Shown piece after piece: positions 4,217 to 59,672 of a stretch of 64,000 bases of DNA. Location: contig OX328101.1 of assembly GCA_946811185.2 (NCBI GenBank), positions 17,592,122 through 17,656,121 on the forward strand, read 5' to 3'. The notes under the pieces are model-generated. The model saw only the letters and a list, made by a program, of their open reading frames with translations, had not been told where the DNA came from and searched no databases. The position numbers and the translations under genes are program-made. Each line of letters begins with the position of its first letter. The stretch's first letter is position 1. This DNA is from Hippopus hippopus (lineage: Eukaryota > Mollusca > Bivalvia > Cardiida > Cardiidae).

Positions 4217-4436
4217 TTAACTCATTACCAAACGACAAAATTTTAGGTTTGTCCAATTTGAAAGCATTTGCAGACGACAAAATAAAAGTGACTGAACATT
4301 TGAAATTTGTTTTGTGAAGGGTAGAAAACATTGTGGGAAAAGGAGAAAATGCTGGTTACCAGCATTTTCTCCTTTTCCCACAATGTTTTCCAAAGGCTTC
4401 TTTCTCAGGGTCGTCAAAAGTAGGGATTGTGTGATT
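4217..4436 (+). mobile_element. M1 MITE, nearly full length
   Basis: The hairpin is perfect around GGTTACC. The last bases of the right TIR are replaced by the start of the next element (GGCTCACCTGAGC at 4438). Confidence 0.8.
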
Positions 4437-7861: not shown

Positions 7862-8090
7862 TTAACCCTTTACCAAACAATCCCTGGTTTTTACGACCCT
7901 GCGATAAAAGCCTTTTGAAAACATTGTGGGAAAAGGAGAAAATGCTGGTAACCAGCATTTTCTCCTTTTCCCACAATGTTTTCTATTCTGCTGGAAGCAA
8001 ATTTCAATTTTTGAGTTACGTTTATTTTGTCATCTGCAAGTGCTTTGAATTTGGACCAATCTAGAAAATTGTCGTTTGGTAAAGAGTTAA
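7862..8090 (-). mobile_element. M1 MITE, full length (229 bp)
   Basis: TTAA-CCCTTTACC...GGTAAAGAG-TTAA, with a perfect stem around GGTAACC. It shares its right TTAA with the next copy. Confidence 0.9.
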
Positions 8091-20195: not shown

Positions 20196-20424
20196 TCTTT
20201 ACCAAACCGACAAAATGTTAGACTTGTCCAAATTGAAAGCATTTGCAGACGACAAAATAAACGTAACTCAAAAATTGAAACTTGAATTATTTAGAAGAGT
20301 AGAAAACATTGTGGGGAAAAGGAGAAAATGCTGGTTACCTGCATTTTCTCCTTTTCCCACAATGTTTTTAGAAGGCTTCTTCCTCTGGGTCGTAAAAACC
20401 AGGGATCGTTTGGTAAAGGGTTAA
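20191..20424 (+). mobile_element. M1 MITE, near full length
   Basis: Complete arms; hairpin centre TGGTTACCTGC; right end GGTAAAGGG-TTAA. A variant arm ('AACGTAACTC', 'GAAACTTGA') is shared with 35228-35444, so the two belong to one subfamily. Confidence 0.85.
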
Positions 20425-20469
20425 ATACATCTTTGTCATGTGGTAAGGAGTGAAAGCCTTTTTCCTTTG

Positions 20470-22968: not shown

Positions 22969-23006
22969 AGACAGTAGAGGATCAAAACTGACCATTCCTA
23001 AACAAA
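22969..23006 (+). other. 5'UTR part of nuclear receptor coding exon, after 3' splice site
   Basis: A pyrimidine-rich tract (TTTTTATTTTCAG) ends at 22968 and gives a good acceptor 38 nt before the ATG. The upstream non-coding exon or exons are not identified. The bases just before the acceptor (CAAACAAACTAATAAAC) are a plausible branch region. Confidence 0.6.
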
Positions 23007-24956
23007 ATGGGTGTTGATTCCCATCCAAGTTCAGGAGACACCAGAGCATTATCATCAACTGCAATATCATCTGAGGAAAAAATAGATCCTGGTTTTATGT
23101 ATGCTGTTGAAAAACATGACCTTACCTTCTGGATAACAAAACACACCAGAAAAATTGAAAATGGTTTAGGAAACTTTAAAAACTTTGAACAAGAGTCAGA
23201 CCATGTAGATGATGTAGCTGTAGGTTTAGGTGGGAAGGGACACAATGAAAACATTGCTGACAGTTTTAATGGTGGTGCCATCCTTAACTCACAGCAGAAA
23301 GCTAGTTCAGATGCCAAAGAAAAAACCAACACTATGTATTTTTGCAGAACAGCGGAAACTCCACCAACAAACAAAACAAGTGAAAATACTCAACCATTTG
23401 TTGGTATGCAGGGATGTTCAATAATATCAGTAAATAAGGAAATAGAGTATGCAGATATCCCAGAGAGCAGATCAAAAACTCTGGCAGGAAAACAAGTACC
23501 GGTACATTATGATGGACTTGCTGTGATTCCAAAAGCATGTGAATCTCCTCTAGAAAATGTTAAGGGTATTATGAACATGGCGGTTGTAAAAAATGTGGGA
23601 GGTGATTCCTTTCCTGATTCAGGAATAGCTGTTGACAGTAGCTCACAAGAAAAAGGAGTGATATCATTGGCAGACAGTGTAATGAATTGGGAAACACCTC
23701 TCGCCAAACCTCCAACTAGAGTGTTAAAATTTCCCCCTTGCGACATTTGCAGTGGTAAAGCATCTGGACTGCATTATGGCTGCAATACATGTGAAGCCTG
23801 TAAGAACTTTTTTCGCAGGTATCTTCTGAGGAATCAAAGATATAAGTGCTCTAAAGACAACAACTGTGTGATTTCTAGTGGTAGAAAAAGTAACTGTTCT
23901 GAATGTAGACTAACTAAATGCCTTCGACTTGGAATGTCAAAAGACAAATCAAAAATGGGTCGGTATAGTTACTCACGTAGAACTGAAACAATTAGAAAAG
24001 TAAGAAAGTTGGAAGGCAAAGATGATCCGCAAAATGAAGCCTTTGATGTTTCAGGCTTAGATGATCATTTATTTTCACCCGATGAATCTCTTTCACAACC
24101 TCTTGGTGTATGTGTCTTTTTGAGTGATGAGGAAAATAAAATCATTGAAAACTTGATACCTTCTTTAGATGAGATTAAACCTTGGGGTGAAGCACTTGAT
24201 ACAAAGGAAGCCAGAGAAAAATGTTTACAGGAACACTATGAAAAATACATGCTGAAAGTGAACATGTTTGGAACACTCAATGATTTGCCTAAAGAGGACT
24301 ATCAAAGTCTTCTAAGGAATCATAGTATAGATTTAGATCAGCAGTTTGATTATCTGAAAAACTGTGTTAGTCACTGGGACAGAATAGTTGGACAGTATTG
24401 CAAATATACCAAAAAGATCCCTGGATTTGGTCAGTTGCCATATTCTGATCAAGAGTGTCTGTTAAGATCAACACATTTTGATTTTTTCATCCTACTTATG
24501 CATCAAGGATACAATGCCAATCTTCAGGTGTTTTTAGAAATTAATGGGATGCCATTTCACATCGATGAAAGTGCTGATAAGTTCTTCTCTCGGGCCTTTA
24601 TTGTGGGTGTTTGCAATCTATACAACCGTTTACAGAGAATGAACATTTCTAAAGAAGAAATGGTGTTATTGACAAGTATTGTGACCCTTAGCTGTGATAA
24701 CTGTGAAATTCAAAATGTCGGAGCTGTGAATAACAATCAAGAGTTTGTAACTAACATACTTGTTAAACTGCTAAAGTACAAGTATGGGCAGGTGGCAGGC
24801 ATTAAAAAGTTCTCAAAATATGTGGACTGCTTGCTGGAGATACGAAGCTTAAGGGTAATTTACTCCAAAGAGTACAGTGGGCTGTGCCAAGATAAATTAT
24901 TTCAAGGAGTGTTCAAGGAAGATTCCATTCCTTCTGGTGTATTGCTGGATGTTTAA
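23007..24956 (+). CDS. Nuclear receptor, orphan type (DBD + LBD), single coding exon
   Basis: A 649-aa ligand-regulated transcription factor of the nuclear receptor superfamily, expected to act in the nucleus. Residues 1-240 are a long low-complexity A/B region. The DNA-binding domain is at about 245-310: finger 1 uses C245, C248, C262 and C265, with P-box CEACKNFFRR (262-271). Finger 2 has the C-x5-C-x9-C-x2-C spacing and ends CRLTKCLRLGM. A basic extension follows (to about 330). Residues about 380-640 are a ligand-binding domain with the signature region YCKYTKKIPGFGQLPYSDQ then ECLLR. The start is firm: it has an A at -3, G at +4, and an in-frame TGA five codons upstream. The CDS has no intron, although a 3' splice site at 22967-22968 shows a spliced 5'UTR. 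Oddities: Asn where P-boxes normally have Gly/Ala/Ser after Lys, and LFQGVF (631-636) lacking the usual AF-2 glutamate. I cannot assign an orthologue; bivalves have lineage-specific receptor expansions (known), and this may be one (inference). Confidence 0.95.
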   Translation: MGVDSHPSSGDTRALSSTAISSEEKIDPGFMYAVEKHDLTFWITKHTRKIENGLGNFKNFEQESDHVDDVAVGLGGKGHNENIADSFNGGAILNSQQKASSDAKEKTNTMYFCRTAETPPTNKTSENTQPFVGMQGCSIISVNKEIEYADIPESRSKTLAGKQVPVHYDGLAVIPKACESPLENVKGIMNMAVVKNVGGDSFPDSGIAVDSSSQEKGVISLADSVMNWETPLAKPPTRVLKFPPCDICSGKASGLHYGCNTCEACKNFFRRYLLRNQRYKCSKDNNCVISSGRKSNCSECRLTKCLRLGMSKDKSKMGRYSYSRRTETIRKVRKLEGKDDPQNEAFDVSGLDDHLFSPDESLSQPLGVCVFLSDEENKIIENLIPSLDEIKPWGEALDTKEAREKCLQEHYEKYMLKVNMFGTLNDLPKEDYQSLLRNHSIDLDQQFDYLKNCVSHWDRIVGQYCKYTKKIPGFGQLPYSDQECLLRSTHFDFFILLMHQGYNANLQVFLEINGMPFHIDESADKFFSRAFIVGVCNLYNRLQRMNISKEEMVLLTSIVTLSCDNCEIQNVGAVNNNQEFVTNILVKLLKYKYGQVAGIKKFSKYVDCLLEIRSLRVIYSKEYSGLCQDKLFQGVFKEDSIPSGVLLDV

Positions 24957-33119: not shown

Positions 33120-33371
33120 TTTGACTAGAATTTTCAAAAAGTTTGACATTTCATAAACTGTTATTGCTAGAAGTAATTACTTCAAACTTGGACAAGTTGT
33201 TAACTATCAAAAGGGGAACTCATACAACAAGAGCAGATAACCATCAAAGTATTTTCACACAGTTATGCCGCATTTTCATCTTACAGCTTTTACTGAGTAT
33301 CGAACAGCTGCAGCTGAGCATTGGCATCTACATGTGGTGCTCTTGTTTAAGCATCACAAGGGTTAAGACTG
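33120..33371. other. Repeat-like sequence before the TRIM
   Basis: It contains 'CATCTACATGTGGTGCTCTTG', close to 31200-31230, which suggests another 3' end of a HINE family. No gene. Confidence 0.35.
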
Positions 33372-33577
33372 TGTTATGAGAGACCACTTCTTCATGCATG
33401 GCTTCATCCCGATTTAAATACAATACCTAACAACTGCGTTAGGGAGAATTCTCTTTAGCTCAGTGGTATGGTGTTGGCCTTTCGTCCGGGCGTTTTAGGT
33501 TCGAAACCTGCCCAGTCCCTGTATTTCTGCCATGCATTTGTTCATTTGTTTCTTTGTTGCGGACCTTGTTTGTAAGA
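33372..33577 (+). repeat. 5' LTR of the TRIM, with tRNA-like box A and box B
   Basis: Box A-like TAGCTCAGTGG lies at 33456-33466 and a perfect box B GGTTCGAAACC at 33498-33508, spaced as in tRNA genes. This copy keeps the better Pol III promoter. It has an 8-bp expansion of a TTTG-rich run compared with the 3' LTR. Confidence 0.85.
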
Positions 33578-33595
33578 TGGGGGCTCGTTCAGGAT
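33578..33595 (+). other. Primer-binding site, proline-tRNA type
   Basis: TGGGGGCTCGTTCAGGAT starts at the first base after the 5' LTR. By recall it differs at two positions from the proline-tRNA primer-binding site used by gammaretrovirus-type LTR elements. Confidence 0.8.
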
Positions 33596-33704
33596 TGGCC
33601 ATTGAGCCACTAATCCCATTTGTTGTCCAAAAACGGACATTTGTTGTCTAAATAATAGACGTACTGCCTAATAAGGCTTTGAGTCATCAATAAATGATGA
33701 CTTT

Positions 33705-33715
33705 AAGAGGGGGTG
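33705..33715 (+). other. Polypurine tract of the TRIM
   Basis: AAGAGGGGG followed by TG ends at the base before the second TGTTA. This is the expected plus-strand primer position. Confidence 0.75.
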
Positions 33716-33914
33716 TGTTACGGGAGACCACTTCTTCATGCATGGCTTCATCCCGATTTAAATACAATACCTTACAACTGCGTTAGGGAGAATTCTCTTT
33801 AGCTCAGTGGTTATGGTATTGGCCTTTCATCCGGGCATTCTAGGTTAGAAACCTGCCCGGTCCCTGTATTTCTGCCATGCATTTGTTTCTTTGTTGTGGA
33901 CCTTGTTCGTAAGA
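33716..33914 (+). repeat. 3' LTR of the TRIM
   Basis: It repeats the 5' LTR from TGTTA to GTAAGA. Box B has decayed to GGTTAGAAACC, so Pol III activity is less likely from this copy. Confidence 0.85.
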
Positions 33915-34261
33915 ACTGTTGTTCTTTGAGAAGTCATTATCAAGCTGCTTTGACAGTTGGGATTCCAATCACTAAATTCTTACATAAATGTAGTTTGATC
34001 AGGATTCGTGCTTGACATTAAACTGAATGCTATTCTTTATTCATGAGTCAATTATTTCACTGATAACACAGAAACATAAAAAGAATAAGGGGAGCAGAAA
34101 ACATACTAAATTGCAGATCAGTATCATTTTTTTTTTTTAAAAGACCAGTTAAAGTTCATGGAATAAAGAAAAAGTATATGGTATTGGCTGATGGTCAGAG
34201 AGGTATTCCAAACCAGTGGCCCCTTGTATATTGGTGACTGAGCTACCAGAATTGATTGAAT

Positions 34262-35227: not shown

Positions 35228-35444
35228 TAACTCTTTACCAAACAACAAAATTGAAAGCATTTGCAGACGACAAAATAAACGTAACTCAAAAATTGAAACT
35301 TGACTTAAGAAGAGTAGATCTAGAAAACATTGTGGGAAAAGGAGAAAATGCTGGTTACCAGCATTTTCTCCTTTTCCCACAATGTTTTCAGAAGGCTTCT
35401 TCCTCTTGGTCGAAAAAACCAGGGATTGTTTGGTAAAGGATTAA
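35228..35444 (+). mobile_element. M1 MITE with a 12-bp-class arm deletion
   Basis: The arm skips from CAACAAAATT to GAAAGCATTTGCAG. The hairpin is perfect around GGTTACC. It is in the same subfamily as 20191-20424. A long-arm scrap precedes it at 35168-35225. Confidence 0.85.
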
Positions 35445-35592
35445 AATGTGGCTTCAGTGACAAGATTTGTATATGAAATGGTAGAAAACATTCAGGGAAA
35501 AGGAGAAAATGCTGGTTTCTCCATTACCCATATTTCCCTCTTGTGCCTTTTTCCTGAATGTCATTAAAAAGCAGGGGATTTTTTGGTAAAAT
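35441..35592 (+). mobile_element. M1 MITE, truncated
   Basis: It starts in the middle of the long arm, sharing the previous TTAA. The hairpin is half lost (GCTGGTTTCTCC). Confidence 0.6.
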
Positions 35593-48489: not shown

Positions 48490-48700
48490 GATTAATCCAT
48501 TATTTCTTATGGGATTTTCAAGCGTGTGGTGGTCATTTAAACAGGCATATTTCGGTATAAATGATTGGAATTAGGTTAAATAAGTTGCTTTAAAATCAAT
48601 TATCCTTACTTGTCTGTTTCAAAGGCAAAGTTAGGTCCAAAATCAATATTTTGTTATGTATATCGGTACCTTGCACCCCTTTTTCTGTATTTCTTGTGTT

Positions 48701-48718
48701 CCAATCAGGATGACGTCA
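48701..48718 (+). promoter_or_regulatory. CCAAT box plus second CRE
   Basis: CCAATCAG at 48701 is followed by a second perfect TGACGTCA at 48711, ending 68 bp before the ATG. If transcription starts upstream at the TATA box these lie in the 5'UTR. They could instead drive a shorter transcript. Confidence 0.45.
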
Positions 48719-48786
48719 CGCCTAATGCAACAACATGTCACCGTCAGAGAGCTCAGGTGCGTGAAACAAAACGGGAAATTGGAACC

Positions 48787-49483
48787 ATGTCGTCGCAGAA
48801 TCCGGATGATTCGGACACGGAACAATGTTGGGTTAACCCCGAAGAAAGTGTTAGTAAAGCTGTCATAGCTCTCAGAGATTTTGCAAGGTCAAGAGATAAA
48901 GGTTTTCGGTACGTTGTTTCGCTCAGTTCCCCTGAGCTAGACGGATTCCTAAAAGAGTTTTACCTGGCAATCAAAGACAGCGGCGAAGAGGAACTGACAG
49001 GCTCGGAAAATTTGAACAGAGTACGTTCCGATTTGCAGACGTATTTTTTGAAAGTTGCAAACATTGATATTAGTTCAGTTAGCGAGTTCAGCGACAGTAA
49101 TTCGTTGTTTGATGACAACCCACCAAACAAGGATGTGACTATGAAAGGACCCACAATGAAGAAACATACTCGACAGCGTACTTTCACTTTTGACACGAAC
49201 GAACTGAGACAGATCTATTTGTCAGATGCCATGAACTTAGACAAACCTGAAACTCTACAAAATAAAGTTTTCTTTGATGTTTGTATGTATATTTGCAACA
49301 GAGGAAAGGATTTTCTAAGATTAATGACCAAGTCTGACTTTGAATTGTCAACAGATCAAAATGGGATAAGATATGTATGGTTGAAGTATGACTCAAAGTT
49401 TAGTTTCCAAGAGGTTGCAGGTGGCATGACCTTTGATGGTTCGCCAGGGTCCCAGATAGGAGAAAGGATGTATGAGCGCAAAG
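48787..49483 (+). CDS. DUF3504 / Crypton-derived protein, exon 1 (residues 1-233)
   Basis: This is the first coding exon of a 397-aa protein related to the C-terminal domain of ZMYM2/3/4, QRICH1 and KIAA1958, which descends from Crypton tyrosine recombinases (established family knowledge). Residues about 25-90 resemble the N-terminal SAM-like core-binding domain (LDGFLKEFYLAIKDSG at 51-66). Residues 130-233 begin the catalytic-fold half: a LQNKVFFDVCMYICNRGKDF stretch (157-176) matches the family motif around the first catalytic arginine (R172 here). A charged, Ser-rich linker (95-130) lies between. I chose the ATG at 48787 because A is at -3 and it is followed by an acidic start MSSQNPDDSD. 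The frame stays open upstream to 48610, so a longer start is possible but less likely. The exon ends AAAG|GTGAGT, phase 1. Its base composition is more GC/CpG-rich than its surroundings. Confidence 0.9.
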
Positions 49484-49576
49484 GTGAGTAATGATTACAA
49501 AGATCGAATGTGGCCATTCTTGTAATTTCATGTAGGTCTATGTTACATATTTCCTGTTCTGACTAGTGATGAATCC

Positions 49577-50287: not shown

Positions 50288-50488
50288 TTGACTCTTTACC
50301 AGACAACACAATTTTGGACTGCTCAAAATTGAAGGCATATGCAGTGATCAAATTAAATATTGCTCTGGAGAAGGGATTTGTCTTTTATTTGGTAAAAAGT
50401 TATGTGGGTAAAGGAGAAAATGGCGGTTATCAGCATTTTCTTCTTTTCCCACAATGTTTTCAAAAGCTTCCTTTACCAGGGGTATTTA
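50288..50488 (+). mobile_element. M1 MITE, diverged
   Basis: Long arm first, centre GGTTATCAGC. It adjoins the next copy. Confidence 0.65.
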
Positions 50489-50741
50489 ACTCTTTATCAC
50501 ACAATCCCTACTTTTAACGACCCTGAGAAAGAAGCCTTTTGAAAACATTGTGAGAAAAGGAGGAAATGCTGGTAACCAGCATTTTCTCCTTTTCCCACAA
50601 TGTTTTCTACCCTTCCCAAGCCAAATTATAATTTTTCAGTCACATTTATTTTGTCGTCTGCAAATGCTTTCAATTTGGACTAGTCTATAATTTTGTTGTT
50701 TGGTAAAGGGATAAAGTTAGAGTTGTGTGGTAAAGGGTTAA
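50486..50741 (-). mobile_element. M1 MITE, full length with duplicated end
   Basis: It is normal to GGTAAAGGGATAA (about 50713), followed by an extra 'TTGTGTGGTAAAGGG-TTAA', which is the short-arm end of another copy. Confidence 0.8.
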
Positions 50742-59217: not shown

Positions 59218-59672
59218 TTAATTCTGTACCAAATGACAAAATTGTAGACTTGTCAAATTTTTAAGTATTTTCAGCCAACAAATCAAATTTATTTGAGGAG
59301 ATTTAGAAAAGGAAGAAAAGCTGGTTACCAGCATTTTCTCCTTTTCCCACAATAATTTCAAGAGGCGTTTTATCTCAGGGGACGCCCGGCTGGGTAGCTC
59401 AGTGGTTAGCGTATCTGACTCGTGACCTGGAGGTTGCGGGTTCGATACCAGGTTGCGGCGAACTTTCTTTCCGGCAATTTTTCGCCTCTCACCTCTGATG
59501 CATGTGAGAAAAGTAGTCAGCGGCTTTGGAAAGAAAAAATGTGTCAGTACTGGTGTGAGAAAGCCAGGAAACACATGGTTGTGTCACTGACCGCCATGAT
59601 ATGACCTATGCTATTAAAATGGAGTTATACTCGGGGTCATTGAAAGGTATGGTTGTATGGTAAAGGATTTAA
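59218..59672 (+). mobile_element. M1 MITE interrupted by a SINE
   Basis: The left part 59218-59378 runs through the hairpin to TCTCAGGGG. The right part 59630-59672 continues CTCGGGGTCATTGAAAGG to GGTAAAGGATTTAA. Confidence 0.8.
59379..59629 (+). mobile_element. tRNA-derived SINE inside M1
   Basis: The tRNA-like head 59388-59462 has box A TGGGTAGCTCAGTGGTTAGCG-type and box B GGTTCGATACC. The body matches the SINE at 26141-26352. An imperfect duplication of about 8 bp (CTCAGGGG / CTCGGGGT) flanks it. The anticodon arm does not pair, so this is not a tRNA gene. Confidence 0.8.

Follow-up and report, generated by a model that had tools for sequence, protein, structure and literature searches.

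Which kind of element carries tRNA-type promoter boxes within its LTRs, and how would such an element be transcribed? Both questions are raised by a 543-bp unit at positions 33372-33914 of the stretch of DNA analysed here (64,000 bases, 36% G+C; hereafter the window), which had been predicted to be a complete TRIM with Pol III-type LTRs. The explanation that we favor, with a probability of about 0.83, is that the unit is a Helenus-type TRIM, decayed yet with all its structural parts in place, and that its host is probably a heterodont bivalve. We set out below the structure of the unit, the evidence for a tRNA-like promoter in its LTRs, the signals that bear on its transcription, and its relation to known TRIMs.

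Structure and borders of the element

Comparison of the terminal repeats divides this complete miniature LTR element into a 5' LTR of 206 bp (33372-33577, TGTTATGAGA...TTTGTAAGA), a 138-bp internal region between the LTRs (33578-33715) and a 3' LTR of 199 bp (33716-33914, TGTTACGGGA...TTCGTAAGA), all on the forward strand, as are the features of the element described below. When the element was compared with the 64-kb window by BLAST, the LTRs matched each other at about 90% identity (E ~1e-78). The same search returned some inverted self-matches within the element and, outside it, two short matches of 20-23 bp (E 0.099), and no second copy of the element within the window. Between the two LTRs there are three ungapped repeat blocks, of 97, 90 and 94% identity, with 11 differences at 198 aligned sites (nine transitions and two transversions; K2P 0.058). 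The alignment has two gaps: one of a single nucleotide just 3' of box A, where the 5' LTR has a deletion relative to the 3' LTR, and one of 8 nt, due to a CATTTGTT that is present in tandem in the 5' LTR, at 33535. Nowhere in the element, in any of the six frames, do more than 56 codons pass without a stop. The unit therefore has the size and layout of a TRIM, being shorter than 1000 bp in total, with two terminal direct repeats and a short, non-coding internal part.

The inner borders of the LTRs carry the two sites expected of such an element. Adjoining the 5' LTR with zero gap is a primer-binding site (PBS) of the tRNA-Pro type, TGGGGGCTCGTTCAGGAT (33578-33595), identical to the complement of the eukaryotic tRNA-Pro 3' end except at two of its 18 positions. 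A PBS pattern widened at these two differing positions is found once in the window with at most three mismatches, versus 0.06 occurrences expected. At the other end of the internal region, the polypurine tract (PPT) AAGAGGGGG (33705-33713) lies beside the 3' LTR, with only a TG separating them.

Border comparison places the tetranucleotide ACTG on either side of the whole unit, at 33368-33371 on the left and 33915-33918 on the right, as the apparent target-site duplication. When the borders were slid by up to 3 bp, the sole agreements of 4-6 bp were ACTG, CTGT and ACTGT, and the duplication could also be read as a 5-bp ACTGT, if the LTR is taken to begin one base further on; we favor the 4-bp form because the LTR then starts with TG. 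Given a PBS and a duplication at the borders of an independently defined 90% repeat, chance is an unlikely reading. The architecture that had been proposed for the locus is thus borne out in each part: a complete TRIM with two LTRs of about 200 bp, an abutting proline-type PBS, a PPT and an exact 4-bp ACTG duplication of which both copies are present.

tRNA-like promoter boxes in each LTR

A motif scan located box A, TAGCTCAGTGG, as an exact match in both LTRs, at 33456-33466 in the 5' copy and at 33800-33810 in the 3' copy. Box B is likewise exact in the 5' LTR (GGTTCGAAACC, 33498-33508, 42 bp from box A, start to start), as had been noticed before, and departs by one substitution in the 3' LTR (GGTTAGAAACC, 33843-33853, 43 bp from box A by the same measure), where the C of the 5' LTR is an A and GGTTC has become GGTTA. 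The original prediction, which placed boxes A and B in each LTR, is therefore right for box A in both copies and for box B in the 5' copy, and has to be amended for box B in the 3' copy: this was described as having lost a base, and has in fact exchanged one.

How much weight can these boxes bear? With at most one mismatch allowed per box and a separation of 30-60 bp, the window contains four box pairs, two of which are those of the LTRs, while the remaining two share a single box B at a SINE-like site near 59395. In 100 shuffles of the window the same count averaged 0.91 and reached 7 at most, and the box pairs are by themselves only suggestive. The SINE-like site occupies 59385-59460, perhaps reaching farther downstream, and has a box A TAGCTCAGTGG and a box B GGTTCGATACC, both exact and 44 bp apart; judged by these boxes it is a candidate tRNA-derived SINE, although ARAGORN makes no call there and Rfam gives no tRNA match at E up to 10.

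Nor is a tRNA recognized in the element. ARAGORN calls no tRNA gene in the window or in the LTRs, the tRNA-like part has no Rfam tRNA match even at E up to 10, and the reading as a tRNA gene was rejected on these grounds. The silence of Rfam is no argument against an origin from tRNA, because the SINE-like stretch, with its exact boxes, is unmatched as well; such silence fits a tRNA-derived sequence that has lost its cloverleaf. Global alignment of the tRNA-like part to the head of the window's SINE-like stretch gave a score of 43 for the 5' LTR, whose 500 shuffles have a mean of 24.7 and a maximum of 44, and one of 47 for the 3' LTR, whose 500 shuffles have a mean of 23.0 and a maximum of 43. 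The 3' LTR thus scores above all of its own shuffles and the 5' LTR does not, and the score is largely driven by the boxes. The probable tRNA origin of this portion of the LTR rests on the boxes and their spacing, and the portion itself appears to be a promoter remnant, not a tRNA.

Boxes of the tRNA type are also a feature of SINEs, and the window has its own SINE-like stretch near 59395, so one might suppose that the unit is no retrotransposon at all, and consists of two SINE copies, or of a segmental direct repeat, around unrelated DNA. We consider this very improbable, since two SINEs would not be expected to have a PBS and a PPT where they face each other, nor to share a single 4-bp duplication around the whole unit, and since the repeats begin 84 bp upstream of box A.

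The predicted RNA folds of the two LTRs are alike. Box A of the 5' LTR falls in the 3' arm of a predicted 56-nt hairpin (33421-33476; -24.5 kcal/mol, z -6.07), and a corresponding hairpin is predicted over box A of the 3' LTR (33765-33821; -23.6 kcal/mol, z -5.28), with none of 200 shuffles as good in either LTR. The box B part forms a second predicted hairpin in folds of 100 and 101 nt (z -3.20 and -4.14), and the LTR fold as a whole is one of two hairpins, with no cloverleaf predicted. Of 31972 sampled 56-nt stretches on both strands of the window, 633 fold at -20 kcal/mol or better, two of them inside the element and 631 outside it. Since such folds are not unique in this repeat-rich window, we keep the box A hairpin as an observation only.

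Repeats are abundant in the window: at E 1e-8, 52% of its sequence has a match elsewhere within it. One fold-back repeat, roughly 200 bp long, with its reference copy at 35248-35445 and others at, for example, 20230-20425, 7862-8052, 50485-50676 and 4255-4433, has 23 near-full-length matches to the reference on both strands (67-92% identity), besides the reference's own inverted match, and is probably a MITE-like family. Hairpins in the window reach -44 kcal/mol per 56 nt, and one of these, at 35329, lies in the fold-back reference.

Signals for transcription by Pol II or Pol III

A TATA-like sequence, TTTAAATA, is present upstream of box A in both LTRs, at 33413-33420 in the 5' copy, 43 bp before the box, and at 33757-33764 in the 3' copy. 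Its occurrence at the same place in the two LTRs suggests another account, in which the element is an ordinary Pol II TRIM: TTTAAATA, at LTR position 42, would be its TATA box, transcription would begin about 30 bp beyond it, and the tRNA-like stretch would be a passenger from an old SINE insertion. The lack of any tRNA call or predicted cloverleaf agrees with that account. It is harder to reconcile with a box A that is exact twice and a box B that is exact or one base off, at a spacing of 42-43 bp, when scoring as a tRNA has been lost, or with LTRs that have no poly(A) signal. Neither AATAAA nor ATTAAA was found in either LTR, and the only AATAAA of the element (33689-33694) lies outside the LTRs, upstream of the PPT, so that a Pol II transcript would be without an obvious poly(A) signal in R. 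We regard the Pol II account as unlikely, though worth keeping in mind.

Runs of T, at which Pol III could stop, are few on the sense strand. The element has a single run of four or more T in 543 bp. Its dinucleotide shuffles have 6.65 such runs, with none of the 2000 as low, and its base shuffles have 4.99, with 2.45% as low. The one run of the element is a TTTT at 33493-33496, between boxes A and B and in the 5' LTR only, and may represent a premature Pol III stop. The internal part and 3' LTR together have no such run, versus 3.39 in dinucleotide shuffles (0.45% as low) and 2.65 in base shuffles (4.6%); for the 3' LTR taken alone, 8.65% of base shuffles are also free of them. Downstream of box A of the 3' LTR, the first TTTT is reached at 34127, in the flank. 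The antisense strand of the element has one run, versus 1.48 expected. As a local control, 8.3% of 1270 window stretches of 543 bp also carry at most one T run. The shortage on the sense strand is weak evidence of Pol III use in this one copy, and the pattern offers a simple test of such use across copies. In the T-rich tract of U5, the longest T runs are of three; shuffles of this tract lack TTTT in 3.3% of cases for the 5' LTR (24 nt) and in 10.6% for the 3' LTR (16 nt), which is not convincing alone.

These signals can be assembled into a mode of propagation for an ancestor with intact boxes. Pol III would have started within the 5' LTR, a short way before box A, and would have continued across the internal region as far as the 3' LTR, with read-through permitted by the short length of the element and by the few T runs of its sense strand; the 3' ends of the RNA may have formed at weak T-rich stretches of the 3' LTR or of the flank. 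A tRNA-Pro would then have primed the minus strand for a reverse transcriptase supplied by a Gypsy-class partner, the proteins of which would also have packaged and integrated the element in trans, leaving the 4-bp duplication. A Gypsy-class partner is proposed because only Gypsy elements were found to be similar to animal Helenus in the PBS region (PMC10886601). The present copy may be inactive, because its 5' LTR has the TTTT between the boxes and the deletion after box A, two features that the original prediction did not include, and its 3' LTR has the substitution in box B.

A more elaborate alternative gives the predicted hairpins and the U5 tract a function. The element would belong to a heterodont Helenus lineage that either predates the split from Pteriomorphia or was acquired horizontally, and in which the promoter has been reworked into a two-hairpin RNA, box A being paired with an inverted upstream partner, with the broken T runs of U5 serving as leaky Pol III stops. 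With such stops, transcripts would run on beyond the 5' LTR and still terminate within the 3' LTR. If true, this would be a specific answer to the question of how a Pol III unit can bear promoters in its terminal repeats; we think it distinctly improbable.

Relation to known TRIMs and genomic context

The preferred reading, a decayed Helenus-type TRIM, draws on the published description of this group. Helenus (TRIMp3), described by Kojima in 2024 (PMC10886601), comprises TRIMs with tRNA-derived sequence in their LTRs, a PBS and a PPT, and occurs in fungi, animals and one plant; the animal elements are 311-1263 bp in total length and have a target-site duplication of 4 bp. The 51 bivalve families are spread over five orders, all within Pteriomorphia, and are primed by tRNA-Lys, His, Ile, Pro, Glu or Ser (PMC10886601). 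The box B sequence GGTTC is called conserved, and transcription of Helenus by Pol III is expected, without experimental validation (PMC10886601). Helenus is also mentioned in passing in PMC12859917.

The element at 33372-33914 resembles these in having boxes A and B within its LTRs, the size of a TRIM, a PBS of the tRNA-Pro type, a PPT and a 4-bp duplication. It differs in its host, which is probably heterodont, while the published bivalve families are pteriomorphian, and the likeness is one of described features. The earlier assignment to a Helenus-type TRIM is supported by this fit to the animal features given in PMC10886601. Among literature titles and abstract openings, no report of Helenus in a heterodont bivalve was found, and such elements may be deposited in Repbase. 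The element fits a described kind and would be a modest extension of the host range of bivalve Helenus; with Helenus described as recently as 2024, a copy outside its published bivalve hosts would bear on the age of the group in bivalves. Aside from its probable host group and testable Pol III signatures, it is an ordinary mobile-element fossil.

Two other TRIMs share a Pol III-type or small-RNA-derived promoter in the LTRs, both differing from the element in having it derived from 5S rRNA (PMC10886601). Cassandra, both LTRs of which bear a promoter of the Pol III type, occurs in green plants; Ajax, an animal TRIM, is known from two nemerteans and has a 5-bp duplication (PMC10886601).

Another comparison, on grounds of host, is biv-TRIM, the other TRIM known to us in print from bivalves, which has terminal repeats of 202-218 bp, similar in length to those seen here, and is recorded from both Heterodonta and Pteriomorphia (PMC6934838). 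That the element is a member of biv-TRIM is nonetheless a reading to which we give scarcely any credence. As described there, biv-TRIM has an internal part of 77-80 bp, shorter than the one found here, a PPT that is mostly GGGGAGA, and no clearly recognized PBS. Its conserved TGATCCCAAAGGAC fits the element at best with 6 mismatches in 14, and its two published primer words at best with 9 and 7 mismatches in 20. The PPT, the internal length and all three published words are thus absent from the element, and it is by this description and these three words that biv-TRIM is set apart.

Exact-pattern scans of pieces of the LTRs and PBS covered viral and prokaryote collections only, and say little about animals. 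The LTR and PBS piece patterns had no matches in three scans of viral contigs and two of prokaryote genome contigs. A 19-base word around box A was found in four stretches of viral contigs, and a 16-base word in one. BLAST of the element against five viral records aligned a 27-nt piece around box A, fitting either LTR, in four of them; it also gave two matches to a 13-nt piece and one, in the fifth record (L005), to a piece of 17 nt. ARAGORN found no tRNA in the other four records (L001-L004), and we take the viral matches to be chance.

Elsewhere in the window, three open reading frames match proteins at 75, 97 and 85% identity, as would be expected of a near relative. A stop-to-stop frame of 654 codons at 22992-24956 encodes a C4 zinc finger and a nuclear-receptor ligand-binding domain and has at least 50 protein matches, the weakest of those listed at E 1e-41. 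Among the matches listed, 11 carry an organism name. The six of these with E <1e-99 are from Mercenaria (two), Ruditapes (two), Mactra and Dreissena, all heterodont bivalves; the other five are from Lingula (two), Mya, Potamilus and Elysia, the best at 3e-52, and no pteriomorphian is named among them. It is these 11 named matches, from a single gene family with many copies, that make a heterodont host probable; protein searches with the two other frames do not help here, as the only organisms named in them are two sea slugs. Two of the matched proteins, P0001 (75% identity) and P0014 (44%), are perhaps encoded on one contig, in what may be a local receptor cluster. A second frame, of 303 codons at 48580-49491, has no Pfam match; the 234-residue part beginning at its first MSSQ is 97% identical to one protein and has further relatives of 37-65% identity, two of which are sea slug proteins (37-39% identity).
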